A stretch of DNA of 64,000 nt from assembly GCF_008065115.1 (NCBI RefSeq), contig NZ_CP042913.1, forward strand, positions 5,529,257 through 5,593,256. The letters run 5' to 3'. This DNA comes from Bythopirellula goksoeyrii (GTDB taxonomy: Bacteria > Planctomycetota > Planctomycetia > Pirellulales > Lacipirellulaceae). Both the position numbers and the translations under genes were made by a program. Each line of letters opens with the position of its first letter. The stretch's first letter is position 1. Under the pieces are notes generated by a model. That model searched no databases. It was not told the origin of the DNA and saw only the letters and a list, made by a program, of their open reading frames with translations. Below are positions 1-62,890 of the stretch, piece by piece.

Positions 1-1798
1 GCTTGTCGAGAATCTGGCCCGTCGCAAATGCTTCACCAGGTTCGAGAATATTGCGATCTCGCATATCGTAGGCATCGATGCCAACCTTCTCGGCGAGCCG
101 GTCGAGCAATCCTTCGATCGCAAACGCCGCCTGATTTGCACCAAACCCTCGCATCGCGCCACAGGGAGGGTTGTTCGTGTAGACGGCCAGTGACTCCATG
201 TCGACTGCCGGCACACGGTAGGGACCGGTACAATGGCCACCGGCCCGTTCGAGAACCTTGGCACCGACCGACGCATAGGCCCCCTTGTCGCCGATAATCC
301 GCGCCTGCACGGCAGTGATGTGCCCCTCGGAATCGCAACCGACCTTGTAATCCAATTCAATCGGATGCCGCTTGGGATGAATCCGAAAACTTTCAGGACG
401 CGTAAGTGTCAACTTCACGGGGCGACCTACCAACCATGCCATCAATGCCGTCTGGGCTTGAATCGACATGTCTTCCTTGCCCCCAAACGCGCCACCGTTG
501 CTCACGAGTTCAACTTGTACGCGTGACGGATCAATCCCCAGCACAGAAGAAATCTGACGCTGATCGTCAAACACTCCTTGGCCCTGAGTGTAAACAAACA
601 GTGAGCGAGCCGGGTCGTCCTCGACCCCGGTCGGGGCGCCATTCGGGGAGCCAGTCGGGGCGGGGGACCGCCCGGCTCGCTCATCGGTGGGGATCACCAA
701 ACACGCTTCCGGCTCGAGGAATAAATGTTCAATTCGCTGGGTGACGTAAGAGTCCTCAATAATAAACGCCGAGTTTCGGAACCCCTCCTCGATATCTCCC
801 CGCTTGAGCGACGATTTACTCAGCAAGTTCGACTCTAAATGAGGATGCACTCGTGGAGCATCTGGCTCAAGTGCCGCGCGGGGACTTGTTACCGGCTCGA
901 GAACTTCGTATTCGATGTCAATCAATTCCGCAGCACGGCGCGCTAATCGTTGATTCTCCGCAACCACTCCTGCAATCACATCTCCCGTGCACCGAGTCAC
1001 ATCACCTATGCCGACAAAGACGGGCCAATCTTTGGCAATGAGACCTACCAAGGGATCGCCCGGCACATCGGCAGCAGTTACCACGCGATGGACGCCAGCA
1101 AGGTCAAGCGCGCGACTGGCATCAATGGACAGGATCTTGGCACGGGGATGATCGGTCAGCCGCACCGCTCCGTAGAGCATGTCTGGCACAGTCATGTCGT
1201 CGATAAACTTGCGATCCCCTAACACGGCGTCGTGACCCGTAAAGCGCGGCAGGTTGGTCCCCACCTTGCCCGATAAATCCGCCGCCGTCGGCTCGGGTAG
1301 TTTTTCACCACGGCGAAGCTTGGCATATTGCTCGATGCTATCGACGATCTGGGTATAGCCCGTACAGCGACAGAGGTGTGGCTTAAGAGCCGTGGCGATT
1401 TCTTCTCGCGATGGTTCGGGATTCTTGTCGCATAAACCCACACCCCGCATGGCCATACCGGGAATACAGAATCCACACTGCACACCGCCGCATTGCACAA
1501 AGGAATCGGCTATCTGCTGGCGGTGTTGCTCGTCGAGTCCTTCGAGCGTGGTGATCGATTTGCCAGCAGCCTTAACGGGTTTGATGGCGCATGATAGCAC
1601 CGGCTTGTCGTCCATCAGAATCGTGCAGCAACCACATTGTGCCTGGGGTTGGCAGCCATTCTTGGGAGAGGTGATCCCCAGATAGTCGCGCAGCACATCC
1701 AACAGGGTCAGCTCATCATCCGCAGGAAGCTGAACTTCGACGTCGGCCCCATTGACCTGACAAGCGAGCGTGAGAGAGTTTTCGGTGACAGTAGCCAC
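1..1798 (-). CDS. xdhD: xdhD-like fused [2Fe-2S]/molybdopterin hydroxylase (partial)
   Basis: Molybdenum hydroxylase of the xanthine dehydrogenase family in which the small Fe-S domain and the large molybdopterin domain are one chain, as in XdhD and the 'selenium-dependent xanthine dehydrogenase' family. Seen by translating the reverse strand: two [2Fe-2S] sites (Cys49, Cys55, Cys57/58 and Cys70; then Cys108, Cys111, Cys143 and Cys145 in CRCTGY), a hammerhead domain from about residue 170, then GGAFGGKEDM and RGFGANQAAF molybdopterin motifs. There is no FAD domain, so electrons must leave by another partner. The start is GTG at 1798 with a strong AGGGAGG ribosome site nine bases upstream. The gene runs off the left edge after about 599 codons. 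Residues of about 373-399 are encoded by an inserted palindromic repeat. It is divergent from ygeY and opens a purine-degradation region. Substrate (hypoxanthine, xanthine or another purine) cannot be told from sequence. Confidence 0.9.
   Translation of the reverse strand, partial: MATVTENSLTLACQVNGADVEVQLPADDELTLLDVLRDYLGITSPKNGCQPQAQCGCCTILMDDKPVLSCAIKPVKAAGKSITTLEGLDEQHRQQIADSFVQCGGVQCGFCIPGMAMRGVGLCDKNPEPSREEIATALKPHLCRCTGYTQIVDSIEQYAKLRRGEKLPEPTAADLSGKVGTNLPRFTGHDAVLGDRKFIDDMTVPDMLYGAVRLTDHPRAKILSIDASRALDLAGVHRVVTAADVPGDPLVGLIAKDWPVFVGIGDVTRCTGDVIAGVVAENQRLARRAAELIDIEYEVLEPVTSPRAALEPDAPRVHPHLESNLLSKSSLKRGDIEEGFRNSAFIIEDSYVTQRIEHLFLEPEACLVIPTDERAGRSPAPTGSPNGAPTGVEDDPARSLFVYTQGQGVFDDQRQISSVLGIDPSRVQVELVSNGGAFGGKEDMSIQAQTALMAWLVGRPVKLTLTRPESFRIHPKRHPIELDYKVGCDSEGHITAVQARIIGDKGAYASVGAKVLERAGGHCTGPYRVPAVDMESLAVYTNNPPCGAMRGFGANQAAFAIEGLLDRLAEKVGIDAYDMRDRNILEPGEAFATGQILDK
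602..683. repeat. Family A palindromic repeat inserted in frame in xdhD
   Basis: An 82-base element bounded by exact 13-base inverted repeats (TGAGCGAGCCGGG at 602-614 and its complement at 671-683). The same ends occur between genes at 36637-36713 and, as half copies, at 47425 and 50592. Here it lies inside the xdhD-like coding sequence and is read through without a stop, adding a Pro/Gly/Ala-rich stretch between VIPTD and LFVYTQGQGV. Confidence 0.8.
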
Positions 1799-2032: not shown

Positions 2033-3298
2033 ATGAAAAATAAAAAATCCTACCTTGACGCTGCTAAAAAGTACGAAAAACAGATGGTCCGCTTCCTGCG
2101 AGACCTCATTGCCATCCCCAGCGAATCGGCCGAAGAGGGTCAGGTCATCGCACGCATTCGGCAAGAAATGGAAGCCACCGGGGCTTTTGATAAGATTTGG
2201 ACCGACAAACTCGGGAATCTCTTGGGCCAAGTTGGCAAACCGGGAAAAGGCAAGAAGCTCATCGCGATTGATGCCCATGTCGACACGGTCGGTGTGGGAA
2301 ACCGCGACGAGTGGCAACACGATCCCTACAAGGGCAAGGTCGCCGATGGCAAAGTATGGGGCCGCGGCGCGGGCGACCAGGAAGGGGCGATCCCCGCCAT
2401 GGTCTATGCCGCCAAGATCATGCGCGACCTCAAAGTCGATCTCTCCGAATATTATCTGCTGCTCACCTGCACGGTGATGGAAGAAGATTGCGACGGGCTC
2501 TGCTGGCAGTATATCGTCCAGGAAGAAAAAATCCGGCCCGACGTGGTAGTGATCACCGACTCCACGAATTGCACCATCTTGCGTGGCCAGCGTGGGCGTA
2601 TGGAAATCGGCGTCACCTGCGACGGCAAGTCGTGCCATGGTTCGATGCCTGAGAAAGGTGACAATGCCGTCTACAAAATCACCAAGGTGGTCCGCGAGAT
2701 CGAGGCCCTCAACGAGCGATTGCACCGCGATGAATTCCTCGGCAAAGGGACAATCACGGTCAGCTACATCGACTGCAAGACCCCTAGCCTCTGCGCGGTC
2801 CCCGGTCAGGCATACATCCATCTCGATCGGCGCCTCACGGTTGGCGATACCAAGAAGTCCGCCGTCGCCGAAGTGAAAGACGCGATCAAGCGGGCCGGAG
2901 TTAAGGGGAAGGTTGAAGTGCTCCGTTACGCCCAACCCAGTTACACCGGTCTCGTCTACGAAACCGAAAAATACTTTCCCACTTGGTGCTTTGACGAAGA
3001 ATCGCCCCAAGTTCAAGCCGCGATCAAGACTCATCGCGATGTGTTGGGGAAAGCGCCGCTTGTGCATCGTTGGACCTTCAGCACCAATGCCGTCTCGATT
3101 GCCGGCATGTACGATATTCCTTGCGTCGGATTTGGTCCTGCCCCCGAGAATGTCGCCCACACCGTGAACGATTCTGTGCCGATTCAACACATGGTCGACT
3201 GCGCCGCATTCTATGCCGCCTTTGGCCAAAGCTACTGCGACCTCGCCGCGGGTCGGCCCAACGATACCAACATGACATTCAAACGGAAGAAATCATAA
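2033..3298 (+). CDS. ygeY: YgeY-type M20 family hydrolase
   Basis: Metallo-amidohydrolase of the M20 peptidase/deacylase superfamily, closest to the YgeY group found with selenium-linked purine genes; in that context it is expected to cut an amide in a ring-opened purine product rather than a peptide. Zinc ligands are visible: His82 and Asp84 in DAHVDT, the bridging Asp115 in GRGAGDQEGA, catalytic Glu150-Glu151 in VMEEDCDG, and a C-terminal His in ENVAHTVNDS. Length 421 residues is normal. It follows the divergent xdhD-like gene after 234 bases and precedes ygeW, from which it is now separated by an inverted-repeat cassette. No good ribosome site precedes the ATG. A 420-codon open frame on the opposite strand is a coding shadow. 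Function within the pathway is inferred from context. Confidence 0.9.
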   Translation: MKNKKSYLDAAKKYEKQMVRFLRDLIAIPSESAEEGQVIARIRQEMEATGAFDKIWTDKLGNLLGQVGKPGKGKKLIAIDAHVDTVGVGNRDEWQHDPYKGKVADGKVWGRGAGDQEGAIPAMVYAAKIMRDLKVDLSEYYLLLTCTVMEEDCDGLCWQYIVQEEKIRPDVVVITDSTNCTILRGQRGRMEIGVTCDGKSCHGSMPEKGDNAVYKITKVVREIEALNERLHRDEFLGKGTITVSYIDCKTPSLCAVPGQAYIHLDRRLTVGDTKKSAVAEVKDAIKRAGVKGKVEVLRYAQPSYTGLVYETEKYFPTWCFDEESPQVQAAIKTHRDVLGKAPLVHRWTFSTNAVSIAGMYDIPCVGFGPAPENVAHTVNDSVPIQHMVDCAAFYAAFGQSYCDLAAGRPNDTNMTFKRKKS

Positions 3299-3300
3299 GT

Positions 3301-3762
3301 AGAACCACAGAGGGCACGGAGGTTCACAGAGACTAGCTGTGACACTTGAAAACAATCAGATTACTGAGCGAATCATCGGAGCAGCTATGAAGGTGCATAC
3401 CGCACTTGGCCCGGGCTTGCTAGAGAGTGCCTATGAGAAGTGCTTAGCTTTCGAATTGTCTCAGCAGGGGATGACCGTAAGATCTCAAGTTGAGTTGCCG
3501 ATCACTTATGGTGAAGTGACTTTGGACGCGGGATATCGGCTTGATCTCCTAGTTGAAGAACAGGTGATAGTCGAACTAAAGACCGTGGAACGAATCTTGC
3601 CTATACATAAGGCACAGTTACTTTCTTACCTTAAATTGAGTAATCAAAGAGTTGGACTACTTCTTAATTTTCACACTGAACATCTTCGTGATGGCATAAC
3701 TCGCATGGTACATGATAGAAAATGATTCTTCCTCTGAGTACCTCTGAGGCCTCAGTGGTTCT
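3301..3762. mobile_element. Inverted-repeat cassette carrying a GxxExxY gene
   Basis: A 462-base unit whose ends are inverted repeats: 3301-3332 and 3731-3762 match at 25 of 32 positions when one is complemented (both begin AGAACCAC on their outer side). It starts two bases after the ygeY stop and contains only the GxxExxY gene. Similar 'CACAGAGGG...CTCTGTGG' ends are familiar around GxxExxY genes in planctomycetes and related phyla. No transposase is present, so movement would have to be in trans. Calling it mobile is inference. Confidence 0.6.
3339..3725 (+). CDS. GxxExxY protein (PD-(D/E)XK nuclease fold)
   Basis: Small protein of the GxxExxY family (128 residues, normal length), a group assigned to the PD-(D/E)XK nuclease superfamily and of unknown cellular role. 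The naming motif is seen as GPGLLESAYEKCL near the N-terminus, and the nuclease-like core as LDLLVEEQVIVELKTV (Asp, then Glu-x-Lys), followed by HKAQLLSYLKL. It uses a GTG start at 3339. It sits alone inside a pair of inverted repeats and separates ygeY from ygeW, two genes of one pathway, so it looks like an insertion. Its base composition is more AT-rich than its neighbours. It is probably not part of purine metabolism. Confidence 0.85.
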   Translation: MTLENNQITERIIGAAMKVHTALGPGLLESAYEKCLAFELSQQGMTVRSQVELPITYGEVTLDAGYRLDLLVEEQVIVELKTVERILPIHKAQLLSYLKLSNQRVGLLLNFHTEHLRDGITRMVHDRK

Positions 3763-3805
3763 AATCAACAACTCCTACAATGCATAAGAATAGAAAGTGA
3801 GATTC

Positions 3806-4837
3806 ATGGCAAACCTTAAAGGCCGCGACTATATCGAGACCAACGACCTCACCCGCGATGAGCTCGACTTGCTGTTGGATACGACGACCGAACTCAAAGA
3901 AAAATTCCACCGGGGTGAACCAACGCAGCTACTCCCCCATCAAACGGCATTCTTGCTGTTCTTCGACAAATCGACCCGCACCCGTAATGCCTTTGAAGCC
4001 GGCATGACGCAACTTGGCGGGCATGCCCATTTTCTTGATGCCGACGTCACCCAGATCAGCCACGGCGAGACTCCTGCCGACACCGGCAAGATCCTCTCCT
4101 CCATGGGACACGGTATCTGCATCCGCCACGACCTGGTTCTCAACCAAGGCAACCGCTATATGCGTGAGATGGCGGAAGCCTCCGATGTGCCGATCATTAA
4201 TATGCAGTGCGACGTCGATCACCCCACACAAACACTGGCCGATCTGCAAACTCTCCGCGAACATTTTGGCACCGATTTGGCCGGCAAAAAGATAGCCGTA
4301 AGTTGGGCGTTCGCCCCATCCTATGCCAAACCTTTGAGTGTTCCCCAAGGCCTAATCACATTGATGACCCGTTATGGCATGAACGTAACGCTCGCTCATC
4401 CGCCAGGATACAACCTTGTGGGTCGGACATTGGAGGCTGCCAAAGCGAACGCGTCCGGGTCGGGAGGCTCATTTGAGATCGTTGACGACATGGACGCCGC
4501 GTTTGAGGACGCTGACATTGTCTACCCCAAGAGTTGGGGCGTCTACGATCTCATGCTTGCCCGCCAGAACGCAAATACCAAAGAAGAAATTGCTGAGAAC
4601 CAACAAGAATGCCTTGCTATGAACGCGAAGTACAAAGACTGGATTTGCGATGAACGCCGCATGAAGCTCGCCAAGAAGTCGGCCGTCTACATGCACTGCC
4701 TTCCTGCTGATCGTGGCTCGGAAGTAACCGATGCCGTCATCGACGGCCCCCAGTCGATTGTCTTCCCCGAAGCCGAAAACCGTCTCCACACCGCCAAGGC
4801 GATCATGTCCTGCTCAATGCGCGAGCGGCCGTTTTAA
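3806..4837 (+). CDS. ygeW: YgeW-type knotted carbamoyltransferase
   Basis: Member of the aspartate/ornithine carbamoyltransferase superfamily, in the YgeW branch. The carbamoyl-phosphate site is seen as DKSTRTRNAFE (residues 54-64), HPTQTLAD (139-146) and HCLPADRGSEV near residue 300. The natural acceptor of YgeW is not settled; the carbamate kinase just downstream suggests it works in the phosphorolytic direction, yielding carbamoyl phosphate from a ureido compound made from purine. The ATG at 3806 is preferred to a GTG at 3797; both lack a strong ribosome site. Length is 343 residues, somewhat shorter than the E. coli protein. A palindromic repeat lies between it and the carbamate kinase. 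Confidence 0.9.
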   Translation: MANLKGRDYIETNDLTRDELDLLLDTTTELKEKFHRGEPTQLLPHQTAFLLFFDKSTRTRNAFEAGMTQLGGHAHFLDADVTQISHGETPADTGKILSSMGHGICIRHDLVLNQGNRYMREMAEASDVPIINMQCDVDHPTQTLADLQTLREHFGTDLAGKKIAVSWAFAPSYAKPLSVPQGLITLMTRYGMNVTLAHPPGYNLVGRTLEAAKANASGSGGSFEIVDDMDAAFEDADIVYPKSWGVYDLMLARQNANTKEEIAENQQECLAMNAKYKDWICDERRMKLAKKSAVYMHCLPADRGSEVTDAVIDGPQSIVFPEAENRLHTAKAIMSCSMRERPF

Positions 4838-16525: not shown

Positions 16526-18880
16526 TCACGATTCTAGTCGTGCGGGAACTTCCAAAGTATTTGTCGTTGTATCTTTCTCCAGCGCTGTCATCACACGCAA
16601 AATCTCCTCCCCCGTGGCCGGTGACTTCAGATCAATCTCCGCGCCCGGCTTGACGTAGGAAAGCGCATTTCGCACTGCAGCCCACACCGAGAGCGCCAAC
16701 ATGAGCGGCGGTTCGCCGACGGCCTTGCTGCTGCCAATGTTATGCGTGTTGTCGTGATTGGGGAACATGCGGACGTTGAACTCCGGGGGGATGTCGGTCA
16801 CAGCGGGGATCTTGTACGTCGTTGGCGAATGGGACAGGAGTTCACCCTTCTCATTGTAGGTGAGACACTCGTTCGTGACCCAGCCCATTCCCTGCACAAA
16901 TCCGCCGATGATCTGACCCCGATCCACCCCCGGGTTGATCGACCGGCCAATGTCAATCAAGAGATCCGCCCGCAAGACGCGCATCTCGCCATTAAAGCGA
17001 TCGATGACCACCTCAGCTACAGCCGCCCCCTGGGTGAAATAGAAAAAGGGCGTACCGCGACCCGTCTCGCGATTGAAGTCAATCCCCGGTGTAGCAAAGA
17101 ACCCGCGGGCACCCAAATCAACCCGGTCCCGCCGGGCATCCTCGCACAACTGTTCAAACGGAATCCGCACCTGAGGTCGCCGGTCGTCATGCACGCTCCC
17201 CTCGGCAAAGCAAATATGCTCCGGCGAGGCGACCAGCCCCGACTCACTGTCAGCCAGATGCTCGGCGGCGAAGGTACGCAGGCGGGACTTGATTTCCTGG
17301 CAAGCCACGACTGCAGCGGCCCCATTCAGGTCGGTGCCAGCCGACGCCGCCGTAGGCGAAGTATTGTTGTTCTTCTCTGTGCTGGTTGCCATCATCAACA
17401 CCCGGCGCGGATCAATGGCAAATTCGTCGGCCACCAGTTGCCTAATCTTTACGTTCACCCCCTGCCCCATTTCCGTGGCCCCGGTCGAGACCTGAATCGT
17501 ACCGTCGGTGTAAATATTTACGAGCGAATTGCCTTGGTTGAGAAACTTGGTCGTGAACGAGATGCCAAACTTCATCCCCGTGAGCGCTAGACCGCGCACC
17601 TGCAGGCGCGACTTGGCATTGAAGTCGGCAATCTCTATACGACGTCGCTGGTAATCCGAATCTTCGGCAAGGGTTTCAAAAATCTCCGGCAAGTGATTCT
17701 TGTCGACCACTTGGCCATAGGGGGTCACATTGCGACTGCCAACGCCATAGACATTCGCCCGGCGAATCTCCAGCGCATCAAGGCCCAACTTCTCAGCTAT
17801 CGACTCCAGCACATTCTCGATGACAATCATCCCCTGTGGTCCACCGAAACCTCGAAACGCCGTATTGGGTGGGAGGTTTGTAAAGCACACCTTGCCCGTG
17901 AACTCCACATGCGGCAGGTAATAAGCATTGTCGCCGTGGAGTAGAGTGCGTTCCATCACCGAGGGGGAAAGGTCGGTCGTGGCCCCGCCGTTTGAAAAGT
18001 ACTCACACCGCAATGCCAACAAATGCCCCGCATCGTCGAATCCACACTCCCAACGCGTAAAATATTCGTGTCGCTTGCCGGTGACGCACATGTCGTCGTC
18101 TTTGTTGTATATCACCCGAGCCGCACGGCCAGTCTTCGAGGCAACCAGCGCCGCCATGATGGCGGGAATCGCCGCCTGGGTCTCCTTGCCACCGAACGCT
18201 CCCCCCATTCGCTTGCAGATGCAGACGACTTCGTGTTGACCGAGTCCCAACACCTCAGCGATGACCGCCTGAATCTCGGTTGGATTCTGCGTAGACGAGT
18301 GGACGACAATCTGCCCCTGCTCGCCCGGATAGGCAAGCGCGGCCTGCGATTCAAGGTAAAACTGCTCCTGCCCGCCACTTTTGAAGGTCCCCTGCAAACG
18401 GTGTGGAGCGGAAGTAAGGTTCTCGTCGACACGCCCGCGGGCGATTTTTCGCACAGGTCCCAGAAAGCGATTCTCTTGAATCGCCTGCTCAATGGTCAGC
18501 ACCGGTGTTTTCTCTCGGCATTCAATCTCCACGGCGCGCCGACCAAGTTCCAGGGCCGCAGGCGTCTCCGCCGCTACTACCACTACCGGTTGCCCGACAT
18601 ACATCACCTCCTCACGAGCCAGAAAAGGATCATCGGCGACGATGAGGCCAAAGACATTATGCCCCGCCACGTCCTCAGCCGTGTAGCAAGCCACGACGCC
18701 AGGTGTTTCCAGAGCGGCTTGCACGTCGATCCGCACAATCTCACCACAAGCAACCGGGCTGCCCACAAATCCAACATGCAACTCTCCCACCTGCGCCGGC
18801 ATATCATCAATAAACAAGGCGCTACCGGTAACATGCCCGCGCGCCGAATCATGTGGCAATGGTTTTCCGATGGAGGTCAT
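16526..18880 (-). CDS. xdhB: Xanthine dehydrogenase molybdopterin subunit
   Basis: Large molybdenum-binding subunit of a two-subunit bacterial xanthine dehydrogenase (784 residues, normal length). Motifs: GKPLPHDSARGHVTG at the N-terminus, GGAFGGKETQ, FRGFGGPQGM, GGFVQGMGW, and SKAVGEPPLML whose Glu is the catalytic base. It oxidises hypoxanthine/xanthine to urate at the Mo centre and passes electrons to the Fe-S and FAD centres of XdhA, encoded just upstream. XdhC is downstream. This classical enzyme exists beside the fused XdhD-like hydroxylase in the same region, so two different purine hydroxylases are available. Confidence 0.93.
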   Translation of the reverse strand: MTSIGKPLPHDSARGHVTGSALFIDDMPAQVGELHVGFVGSPVACGEIVRIDVQAALETPGVVACYTAEDVAGHNVFGLIVADDPFLAREEVMYVGQPVVVVAAETPAALELGRRAVEIECREKTPVLTIEQAIQENRFLGPVRKIARGRVDENLTSAPHRLQGTFKSGGQEQFYLESQAALAYPGEQGQIVVHSSTQNPTEIQAVIAEVLGLGQHEVVCICKRMGGAFGGKETQAAIPAIMAALVASKTGRAARVIYNKDDDMCVTGKRHEYFTRWECGFDDAGHLLALRCEYFSNGGATTDLSPSVMERTLLHGDNAYYLPHVEFTGKVCFTNLPPNTAFRGFGGPQGMIVIENVLESIAEKLGLDALEIRRANVYGVGSRNVTPYGQVVDKNHLPEIFETLAEDSDYQRRRIEIADFNAKSRLQVRGLALTGMKFGISFTTKFLNQGNSLVNIYTDGTIQVSTGATEMGQGVNVKIRQLVADEFAIDPRRVLMMATSTEKNNNTSPTAASAGTDLNGAAAVVACQEIKSRLRTFAAEHLADSESGLVASPEHICFAEGSVHDDRRPQVRIPFEQLCEDARRDRVDLGARGFFATPGIDFNRETGRGTPFFYFTQGAAVAEVVIDRFNGEMRVLRADLLIDIGRSINPGVDRGQIIGGFVQGMGWVTNECLTYNEKGELLSHSPTTYKIPAVTDIPPEFNVRMFPNHDNTHNIGSSKAVGEPPLMLALSVWAAVRNALSYVKPGAEIDLKSPATGEEILRVMTALEKDTTTNTLEVPARLES

Positions 18881-35639: not shown

Positions 35640-36638
35640 ATGACAGAGCAAAGCGAAGATTCTGCTGACGAAAAAATACCCCAGCGACCGCTCAAGTGCC
35701 GCTTGCAGGGCAACTTCGCTGCATGGCTGCACCGCTCGGGCGGGAGTCTGGCAATCACCACTTACACCTCTGGCAAGCTGGTTCTGGTTGGCAGCACCGA
35801 CAGCAAGCTTGCTATCAACGCCCATAAATTCGCCCGCCCGATGGGCATGGCCCGCAATGGCAGCCGACTCGCCATTGCGGTCCGCGAGCAGATCCTTACC
35901 TTCCGTCTGCAAGATGATGGCAAGTTCATCCCCGAGCGAACCTACGACACAGGCAAAGTGAATGCCCACGACCTTGCCTTCGGTCGTCGCGGCATTTACT
36001 TCGCCAATACCCGATTCAATTGCTTGGCTCGCGTCTCCGACCGCAAACAGTTTGTCCAGTGTTGGCTACCTCCATTTATTTCCACGATGTTCGCCCAAGA
36101 CCGTTGCCACTTGAACGGCCTTGGAATGCAGGCAGGCTCACCAGCCATGGCCACCGCTTTCTGCGAGACCGATGAAAAAAATGATTGGCGCAAAGAAGAC
36201 CGTTTCACTTCTGGCGTACTCATCGATGTGGCTCGCAACGAGATCGTCGCGCGCAATCTCTGCATGCCCCACTCGCCCCGTCGTTATCGACGAGCATGGT
36301 GGTTGTGCAACTCGGGCCATGGCTCGCTCTCGCGATTCGATCCCAGCAGCAGCGAATGTCAGGAAGTCTGCGCACTGCCAGGGTTCACGCGGGGGTTATG
36401 CTTCACTGGCAAATACGCGCTCGTGGGCCTCTCCAAAATCCGCCCCAAGCACATCCTCGACGCCCCCCCGGTCCGCGCGCGCCACGGGGAGCTAACGGCT
36501 GGCGTTGCACTCGTGAATCTATCCACCGGCAAACAAGAGGGGCTGCTGGAATTCGTTGAGGGGGGCAACGAAGTGTTTGAAGTTGCTTTCTTACGCGACG
36601 TCAAAGAGCCTCGCCTGCAACATGAAAAAGAAACCTAG
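35640..36638 (+). CDS. TIGR03032 family protein
   Basis: 332-residue protein of the TIGR03032 family of unknown function, probably a beta-propeller (repeated short strands such as GSLAITTYTSGKLVLVG, FARPMGMAR and FTRGLCFTGKYALVGLS). The start at 35640 is preferred over an upstream frame since the conserved region begins shortly after it (GNFAAWLHRSGGSLAITTY). No signal peptide, so cytoplasmic. The stop codon TAG at 36636 is part of a family A palindromic repeat. No functional clue from the neighbours. Confidence 0.75.
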   Translation: MTEQSEDSADEKIPQRPLKCRLQGNFAAWLHRSGGSLAITTYTSGKLVLVGSTDSKLAINAHKFARPMGMARNGSRLAIAVREQILTFRLQDDGKFIPERTYDTGKVNAHDLAFGRRGIYFANTRFNCLARVSDRKQFVQCWLPPFISTMFAQDRCHLNGLGMQAGSPAMATAFCETDEKNDWRKEDRFTSGVLIDVARNEIVARNLCMPHSPRRYRRAWWLCNSGHGSLSRFDPSSSECQEVCALPGFTRGLCFTGKYALVGLSKIRPKHILDAPPVRARHGELTAGVALVNLSTGKQEGLLEFVEGGNEVFEVAFLRDVKEPRLQHEKET

Positions 36639-36713
36639 CGAGCCGGCCCGTCCTCGGGCCCGGCTAAGCCTCGGGCTCAAGGAAAGCCGGGCCCGGGGAC
36701 GGGCCGGCTCGCT
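36637..36713. repeat. Family A palindromic repeat, complete copy
   Basis: 29-base arms at 36637-36665 and 36685-36713 that match at 28 of 29 positions (outer end AGCGAGCCGGCCCGTCC). It begins within the stop codon of the TIGR03032 gene and ends 35 bases from the stop of the kinase gene, so it sits between convergent genes and may terminate both. Same ends as the copy inside xdhD. Confidence 0.8.
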
Positions 36714-39099: not shown

Positions 39100-39170
39100 G
39101 TGAGTGGGTGAGTAAGTGAGTAGGTACAGATGGAACACCTACTCACCTACTCACTTACTCACTCCCTCAC
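39100..39170. repeat. GTGAGT-type inverted repeat at a sigma-factor start
   Basis: GTGAGTGGGTGAGTAAGTGA (from 39100) and its near complement ending at 39170 match at about 23 of 26 positions over a short loop. It occupies the whole region where a ribosome site for the sigma factor should be: the ATG follows at 39171. A hairpin there could block or shape translation, though similar words also occur as plain intergenic repeats. Confidence 0.7.
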
Positions 39171-39764: not shown

Positions 39765-39838
39765 GAATGCGGAATTCGGATTGCGGAATGAATAAGAATT
39801 CCCGCCTATTCTGCACTCCGCAATCCGAATTCCGCATT
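39765..39838. repeat. ATTCCGCA-type palindrome between two sigma genes
   Basis: GAATGCGGAATTCGGATTGC (from 39765) and a right arm 39818-39838 that matches its complement over 21 bases. Lies between the stop of sigma factor 1 and the start of sigma factor 2. The same words appear at 16405-16438. Confidence 0.65.
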
Positions 39839-40424: not shown

Positions 40425-40430
40425 AGACCA

Positions 40431-40500
40431 GCGATGCGTTGCATCGCGGCTACTATTTTCACTCGACAAAGAAACCCCTAGCCGCGATGCAACGCATCGC
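40431..40500. repeat. Family B palindromic repeat, perfect copy
   Basis: 22-base arms at 40431-40452 and 40479-40500 are exact complements (right arm TAGCCGCGATGCAACGCATCGC) around a 26-base loop. Lies between sigma factor 2 and the vWA gene, within the presumed operon. Confidence 0.8.
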
Positions 40501-40511
40501 AGGGCACCACC

Positions 40512-47396: not shown

Positions 47397-47560
47397 GGTT
47401 AGAGGCTGGAGGCTAGAGGTTAGGGTGAGCCGGGTCGTCCTCGACCCCGATTGGCTGGCAAGCTACTTAAATAAGTGCACTTATTCTAGGGTATCAACAG
47501 AACCGCGTCCAAGTGCAACGCATTACGTCCTCTCTAGCCTCTTACCTCCAGCCTCCAACC
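47397..47560. repeat. Interrupted palindrome holding a half family A repeat
   Basis: GGTTAGAGGCTGGAGGCTAG (from 47397) pairs with the complement of 47532-47560. Between the arms lies a left half of family A (GTGAGCCGGGTCGTCCTCGA, from 47426). It separates priA from the sensor kinase and looks like a repeat inserted into another repeat. Confidence 0.55.
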
Positions 47561-50591: not shown

Positions 50592-50620
50592 AGCGAGCCG
50601 GGTAGTCCCCGACCCCGGTT
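50592..50620. repeat. Half family A repeat after nadD
   Basis: AGCGAGCCGGGTAGTCCCCG and a few further bases match the left arm of the complete family A copies at 602 and 36637; no right arm follows. It lies between the convergent ends of nadD and the small gene. Confidence 0.6.
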
Positions 50621-62482: not shown

Positions 62483-62890
62483 ATGCCCCAATCTCTGACA
62501 AAGCTCTATGCCCATTTGATTTTTAGTACCAAGAATCGCCAACCCTATATCGACGAGTCCATTCGGCCACGAGTTCACGGATACTTGGCGACGGTCGTGC
62601 GCAATATCGATTCCCCCTGGGTCGTCGTGGGTGGTGTTGCCGATCATGTTCATATTCTCTTCGACATGGGTAAGCTTCACGCACCGTTAGAGTTCGTCGA
62701 GCACGTGAAGCGAGAATCTTCGAAATTTGTAAAAACACTTGATCCAAAGTATAAGAGTTTTTACTGGCAACGTGGCTACGGCATGTTCTCAGTTGGACCA
62801 GCGCACCGCGGTGAAGCCGAAGAATACGTGCGAAACCAAGAGAAACATCACCACAAGAAGACCTTCCAAGAGGAATTCCGGTCGTTCTAG
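62483..62890 (+). CDS. REP-associated tyrosine transposase, amber-truncated
   Basis: IS200/REP-associated tyrosine transposase (RAYT) with the HUH motif HVH in DHVHILFDMG and the catalytic Tyr in AEEYVRNQEKHHH. At 62888 an in-frame TAG stops the 135-residue product; reading on gives ELYDIAYDEKFVWD and a TGA at 62933-62935, the normal end of this family, so the original gene probably ended at 62935 and lost its C-terminus to a TTG-to-TAG change. The catalytic core is intact, so the truncated protein might still act. Flanked by mirrored REP hairpins. Confidence 0.8.
   Translation: MPQSLTKLYAHLIFSTKNRQPYIDESIRPRVHGYLATVVRNIDSPWVVVGGVADHVHILFDMGKLHAPLEFVEHVKRESSKFVKTLDPKYKSFYWQRGYGMFSVGPAHRGEAEEYVRNQEKHHHKKTFQEEFRSF

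Follow-up and report, generated by a model that had tools for sequence, protein, structure and literature searches.

The window, a 64-kb stretch of the 6.47-Mb Bythopirellula goksoeyrii genome (G000, one closed contig), opens on a selenium-dependent xanthine dehydrogenase (Se-XDH) gene, the first 599 of whose 912 codons lie at positions 2-1798 on the minus strand. The 912-codon minus-strand open reading frame (ORF) scores 935 bits against TIGR03311, which has a curated cut-off of 830.45, and the profile match is split at an insert. The initial annotation had named the gene xdhD; it does encode a xanthine dehydrogenase, and selenium-dependent xanthine dehydrogenase is the better name. Beside it, at 2033-4837, are a YgeY hydrolase, which scores above its cut-off, and a YgeW-like carbamoyltransferase, which at 309 bits is well below the YgeW cut-off of 453 bits. 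The window encodes another molybdenum hydroxylase at 17279-18310 (genome positions 5546535-5547566), with about 32% identity to Se-XDH over the molybdenum domain.

The insert is a doublet of two inverted 26-nt REP-like units (AGCGAGCCGGGTCGTCCYCGACCCCG) with a 26-nt spacer between them, 78 nt in total (604-681). The left unit (AGCGAGCCGGGTCGTCCTCGACCCCG; 604-629, plus strand) scored 47.1 bits with R1, our covariance model of the family, and the right unit (656-681, minus strand), which is inverted and has the compensated stem GGGCGG/CCGCCC, scored 43.4 bits; the spacer runs from 630 to 655. The element had first been delimited at 602-683 on the basis of exact 13-base inverted ends, and these ends are indeed present at 602-614 and 671-683. 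The boundaries of the family itself are 604 and 681, the outer 2 bp on each side (TG/CA) being neither family sequence nor present in other copies.

Alignment of 15 copies revealed that the head, AGCGAGCC, is conserved and that the stem has six pairs and a loop of four bases. The stem covaries: 95.6% of cells in the 15 copies were paired, nine were changed on both sides, and none of 500 shuffles was as good. Exact counts of the 10-base head (50, versus 31 in the reversed control) were too noisy and were discarded as a measure of the family, so we built R1. Searching the whole 6.47-Mb genome with this model recovered about 61 units at 46 loci, and the repeat is thus not absent elsewhere. Units are single or paired, the pairs mostly facing inwards, with about 13 tail-to-tail pairs; most loci lie between genes and at most about six within them. 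The two halves of the XDH doublet have E-values of 4e-8 and 2.5e-7 in the window; the corresponding genome-wide values are 4e-6 and 2.5e-5. R1 also recovered all of the further copies reported earlier from the window: a second complete doublet between genes (36637-36713, 44.0 + 44.3 bits) and the half copies near 47425 and 50592, which are single plus-strand units at 47424-47449 (41.1 bits, beside a heptad inverted repeat) and 50592-50617 (44.6 bits).

The unit is open, that is, stop-free, in all six frames. It is patchily distributed in the taxonomic family, being present in 24 of 43 genomes with 0 to 120 matches each; copies are numerous in G023, with 120, and in G011, with 52. Rfam contains no family matching it. 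This REP-like family is new and has in-frame copies in genes. The GGGCGG stem variant of the XDH copy occurs elsewhere in G000 only at 6358161 and 6358793; the region there (L229) holds two head-to-head unit pairs with this stem, 6358127-6358186 and 6358758-6358818, 0.6 kb apart.

The element was originally described as lying in frame within the coding sequence, and the minus-strand ORF bears this out, with the element translated as residues 373-399 of Se-XDH and the doublet at 604-681 supplying residues 374-398. It contributes about 25 added residues, rich in Pro, Gly, and Ala; alignment confirmed that these are extra, as orthologues lack them. The segment from EPEx to YxQGQG spans 12-14 residues in most distant homologues, 16-20 in several Planctomycetota, and 37 here. 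When aligned with the solved D. gigas aldehyde oxidoreductase, the insert falls at a short GDDG turn. In an AlphaFold2 model of Se-XDH (mean pLDDT 87.5, pTM 0.85), residues 374-394 have a pLDDT below 50 and are placed between the confident strands 365-372 and 398-404, in keeping with the loop proposed at the outset. The insert is predicted to be disordered and lies where the molybdenum-cofactor domain starts, at the turn of a beta-hairpin whose two strands are intact.

Such repeats were initially thought seldom to enter genes without breaking them; in this genome, the family is in frame in three well-supported genes and in six at most. In a conserved unnamed protein, which is found in 42 of the 43 genomes of the taxonomic family, a variable linker contains a full doublet (6361571-6361651) in frame, and in MnmA a variable loop contains a single unit (6241184-6241209). 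There is a perfect unit in an RNase HII-like gene, and aconitase and an M56 peptidase have weaker units. The in-gene count leaves out copies located upstream of a start codon (rhodanese-like, 2990533; PrsW-like, 5281915). The four genes that have a right-hand unit all read it in one frame, yielding a GxxDxPAR-like peptide, and the forward frame used in Se-XDH and the unnamed protein gives an RAGxSxxP-like peptide. The two doublets within genes measure 78 and 81, each divisible by three, while pairs outside these genes occur in all three length classes; the numbers behind both the shared frame and the length classes are small.

The MnmA loop takes up a different repeat in another lineage. In G014 (L292), it contains AGCCCCGACCTAGCTAGGTCGGGGCT, a perfect palindrome of 26 bp that is in frame and gave no hits in the control. 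This palindrome occurs at 68 places in G014, 30 in G027, 4 in G038, and none in G000 or G004. A general enrichment of palindromes in the MnmA and unnamed-protein loops was considered and rejected, as most of these loops are non-palindromic and only the clear cases stand out.

The Se-XDH turn likewise holds other repeats in other lineages. In G022, whose protein is 75% identical, the turn is a GGTGTCTGACACC palindrome, AAAAAGGTGTCTGACACCTTTTT, which is present at 6 places in that genome and gave 0 in the backward control. In G024 (80% identical protein), the turn is a run of the heptad GGGGACA with a C-rich opposite arm; its 20-mer occurs exactly at three places and there are 32 matches, a test that is weak relative to its control, since reversing the pattern gives another member of this heptad class. 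In L124 (genome G147), the turn is a run of the heptad GGCGGAT, with 27 matches in G147 and 0 in the control. Across four lineages, one Se-XDH turn holds four unrelated repeats, and the MnmA loop holds at least two. To gauge the background, we used G004 only, where 1.8% of 60-nt windows of long ORFs hold an 18-mer repeated elsewhere. Against this rate, finding a repeat in the turn in three or more of 20 other lineages has a P of about 0.005, a post hoc statistic with a single-genome background that is therefore suggestive, not decisive. Since related bacteria have unrelated repeats at the same turn, the turn looks repeatedly tolerant of stray repeats. In L147, a Planctomycetota metagenome-assembled genome (MAG), the turn (about 658-700) is encoded by a run of GGGACTGA-type octamers, which may be a fifth class of repeat here; this loop was left out of the count of repeat-filled turns.

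We compared the locus with that of the closest relative, G004, whose Se-XDH protein is 92% identical and whose flanking DNA is about 80% identical. The G004 turn comprises 26 residues and has 48 bp of unrelated or decayed DNA where G000 has 81. From this sequence comparison, the event looks like a replacement of the loop sequence rather than a simple addition. The 48-bp loop has weak similarity to the middle of the element (P of about 0.04), at which level it may be an older, decayed element. The unnamed protein of G004 has an apparent decayed left unit (P of about 0.0002), and at least two family sites outside these genes (878685 and 6207499) are common to both genomes, in G004 in decayed form, while others are not. 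The loop sequences of G004 had no second copies as dispersed repeats in 0.4 Mb of that genome. The repeat family is mobile over evolutionary time. Recent mobility of the family, as first claimed, is unproven for the XDH copy because the turn offers no clean empty site, no target duplication is visible there (in comparison with G004 DNA that is about 20% diverged), and no Y1 transposase gene is accompanied by a unit. None of the 15 Y1 transposase-like (Y1_Tnp) proteins in the genome has a unit within about 1.5 kb, and this search found no enzyme that moves the family. One of the 15, also with no unit within about 1.5 kb, is encoded in the window at 62495-62839 (genome positions 5591751-5592095).

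We consider it probable that REP/MITE-like elements are tolerated in hypervariable protein turns and that such turns are recurrent acceptor sites. A non-autonomous, REP/MITE-like inverted doublet would have come into the hypervariable beta-hairpin turn of Se-XDH and would persist there as about 25 disordered, Pro/Gly/Ala-rich residues. It could do so without breaking the enzyme because the units are stop-free, its length of 78 is divisible by three, and the turn is free to vary in length. The turn would be a recurrent acceptor, filled in other lineages with unrelated repeats of the local genome. The identity of the repeat, its in-frame position, the variability of the turn, the other repeats at the same turn, and the prediction of disorder are all computed; we infer that the doublet arrived by movement of an element, not by recombination or conversion. 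The enzyme presumably still works with the insert, and tolerance alone would explain the recurrence at the turn. For the enzyme, the insert most likely has no function and is tolerated ballast in a loose turn. More doubtfully, the Se-XDH turn and the MnmA loop may be standing landing pads, in which the active repeat of a lineage is taken up in frame and reworked into loop; if so, planctomycete proteins would regularly gain new loops from genome repeats.

Several other readings can be weighed against tolerated arrival at an acceptor turn. The strongest of them, which we nonetheless think doubtful, is that the turn is merely hypervariable and captured its repeats by recombination, gene conversion, or slippage, with no special landing site. 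Consistent with this, the unit replaces the loop in MnmA and the RNase HII-like gene, where the length change relative to G004 is only 9 and 3 nt, respectively, over the aligned region, and slippage can extend heptad arrays. However, the exact dispersed palindromes of G022 and G014 and the complete doublets are copies of elements that also occur at other places in the genome. A recent transposition of the doublet into an empty turn, driven by a Y1/RAYT-type transposase of this genome, is unlikely: both 13-base ends and both stems are intact and 15 candidate transposases are encoded, but the 26-residue turn of G004 is not empty, and neither a target duplication nor a unit close to a Y1 gene was found.

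Less likely again is that the insert is functional, whether as a disordered, acidic, Pro-rich loop or as an mRNA hairpin selected for, e.g., partner binding or inter-domain translation pausing. Its ends have stayed intact although the flanks differ by about 20% from G004, and the RAGxSxxP-like and GxxDxPAR-like peptides recur in Se-XDH and the unnamed protein and in four genes, respectively. On the other hand, orthologues either lack the insert or have unrelated sequence of any length in its place, the segment is predicted to be disordered, and the REP-like unit also occurs in unrelated proteins. We regard chance resemblance, a false ORF, or an assembly error as negligible, having found nothing in favor of any of them. 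Against them stand the whole-genome E-values, obtained at the correct orientation and spacing of the units, the single closed contig, and the TIGR03311 score above the curated cut-off.

Rickettsia is the best-known source of palindromes lying in frame within genes, and such palindromes are usually regarded as one-off decorations, each in a different protein. The classic in-frame case, the Rickettsia palindromic elements (RPE; Ogata et al. 2000, 2002), are, in the accounts of PMC10969869 and PMC3733652, translated in frame inside functional genes, as is the palindrome of Se-XDH, the unnamed protein, and MnmA. As these sources describe them, RPE are about 150 bp long and alphaproteobacterial, which sets them apart from our 78-bp, planctomycete, REP-like element. 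In the literature searched, we found no case of in-frame genic palindromes for Planctomycetota. Like REPs, the family has a covarying stem-loop unit of 20-40 nt and many dispersed, mostly intergenic copies, often in inverted pairs and sometimes in frame. It differs from the GTAG/CGTC superfamilies in its conserved end, AGCGAGCC, its CGTC spanning stem and loop rather than being terminal, and from classical REPs in having no RAYT flanked by the unit (within about 1.5 kb) among the 15 Y1_Tnp genes. Like MITEs, it is a small non-coding element with inverted ends and dispersed copies; no target duplication is visible in comparison with a genome diverged by roughly 20% in DNA, and no parent transposon was identified. 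Di Nocera et al. (2013, PMC3733652) catalogued REPs within genes. REPs, as single units or inverted dimers, are mostly intergenic there, but some lie in frame in ORFs, where dimers often code for 20-30 residues; two Xanthomonas species were noted to have REPs at nearly matching positions in recB. Intragenic REPs and RPE are thus already known. The unusual part, which goes beyond the catalogued intragenic REPs, is that one loop is repeatedly occupied by unrelated repeat classes in different lineages. These paired, differently filled sites make it possible to ask if loose loops simply tolerate repeats or if repeats contribute to the making of new loops.

A TAGAGGCTGGAGG-type repeat has inverted arms at 47397-47423 and 47534-47560, and the unit at 47424 starts directly beside one of them. 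Elsewhere in the genome, several REP-like units adjoin similar TAGTGGTTAG-type repeats, as if nested. Three more strong inverted repeats in the window (39766-39838, 40428-40503, and 39100-39170) probably belong to other intergenic families.
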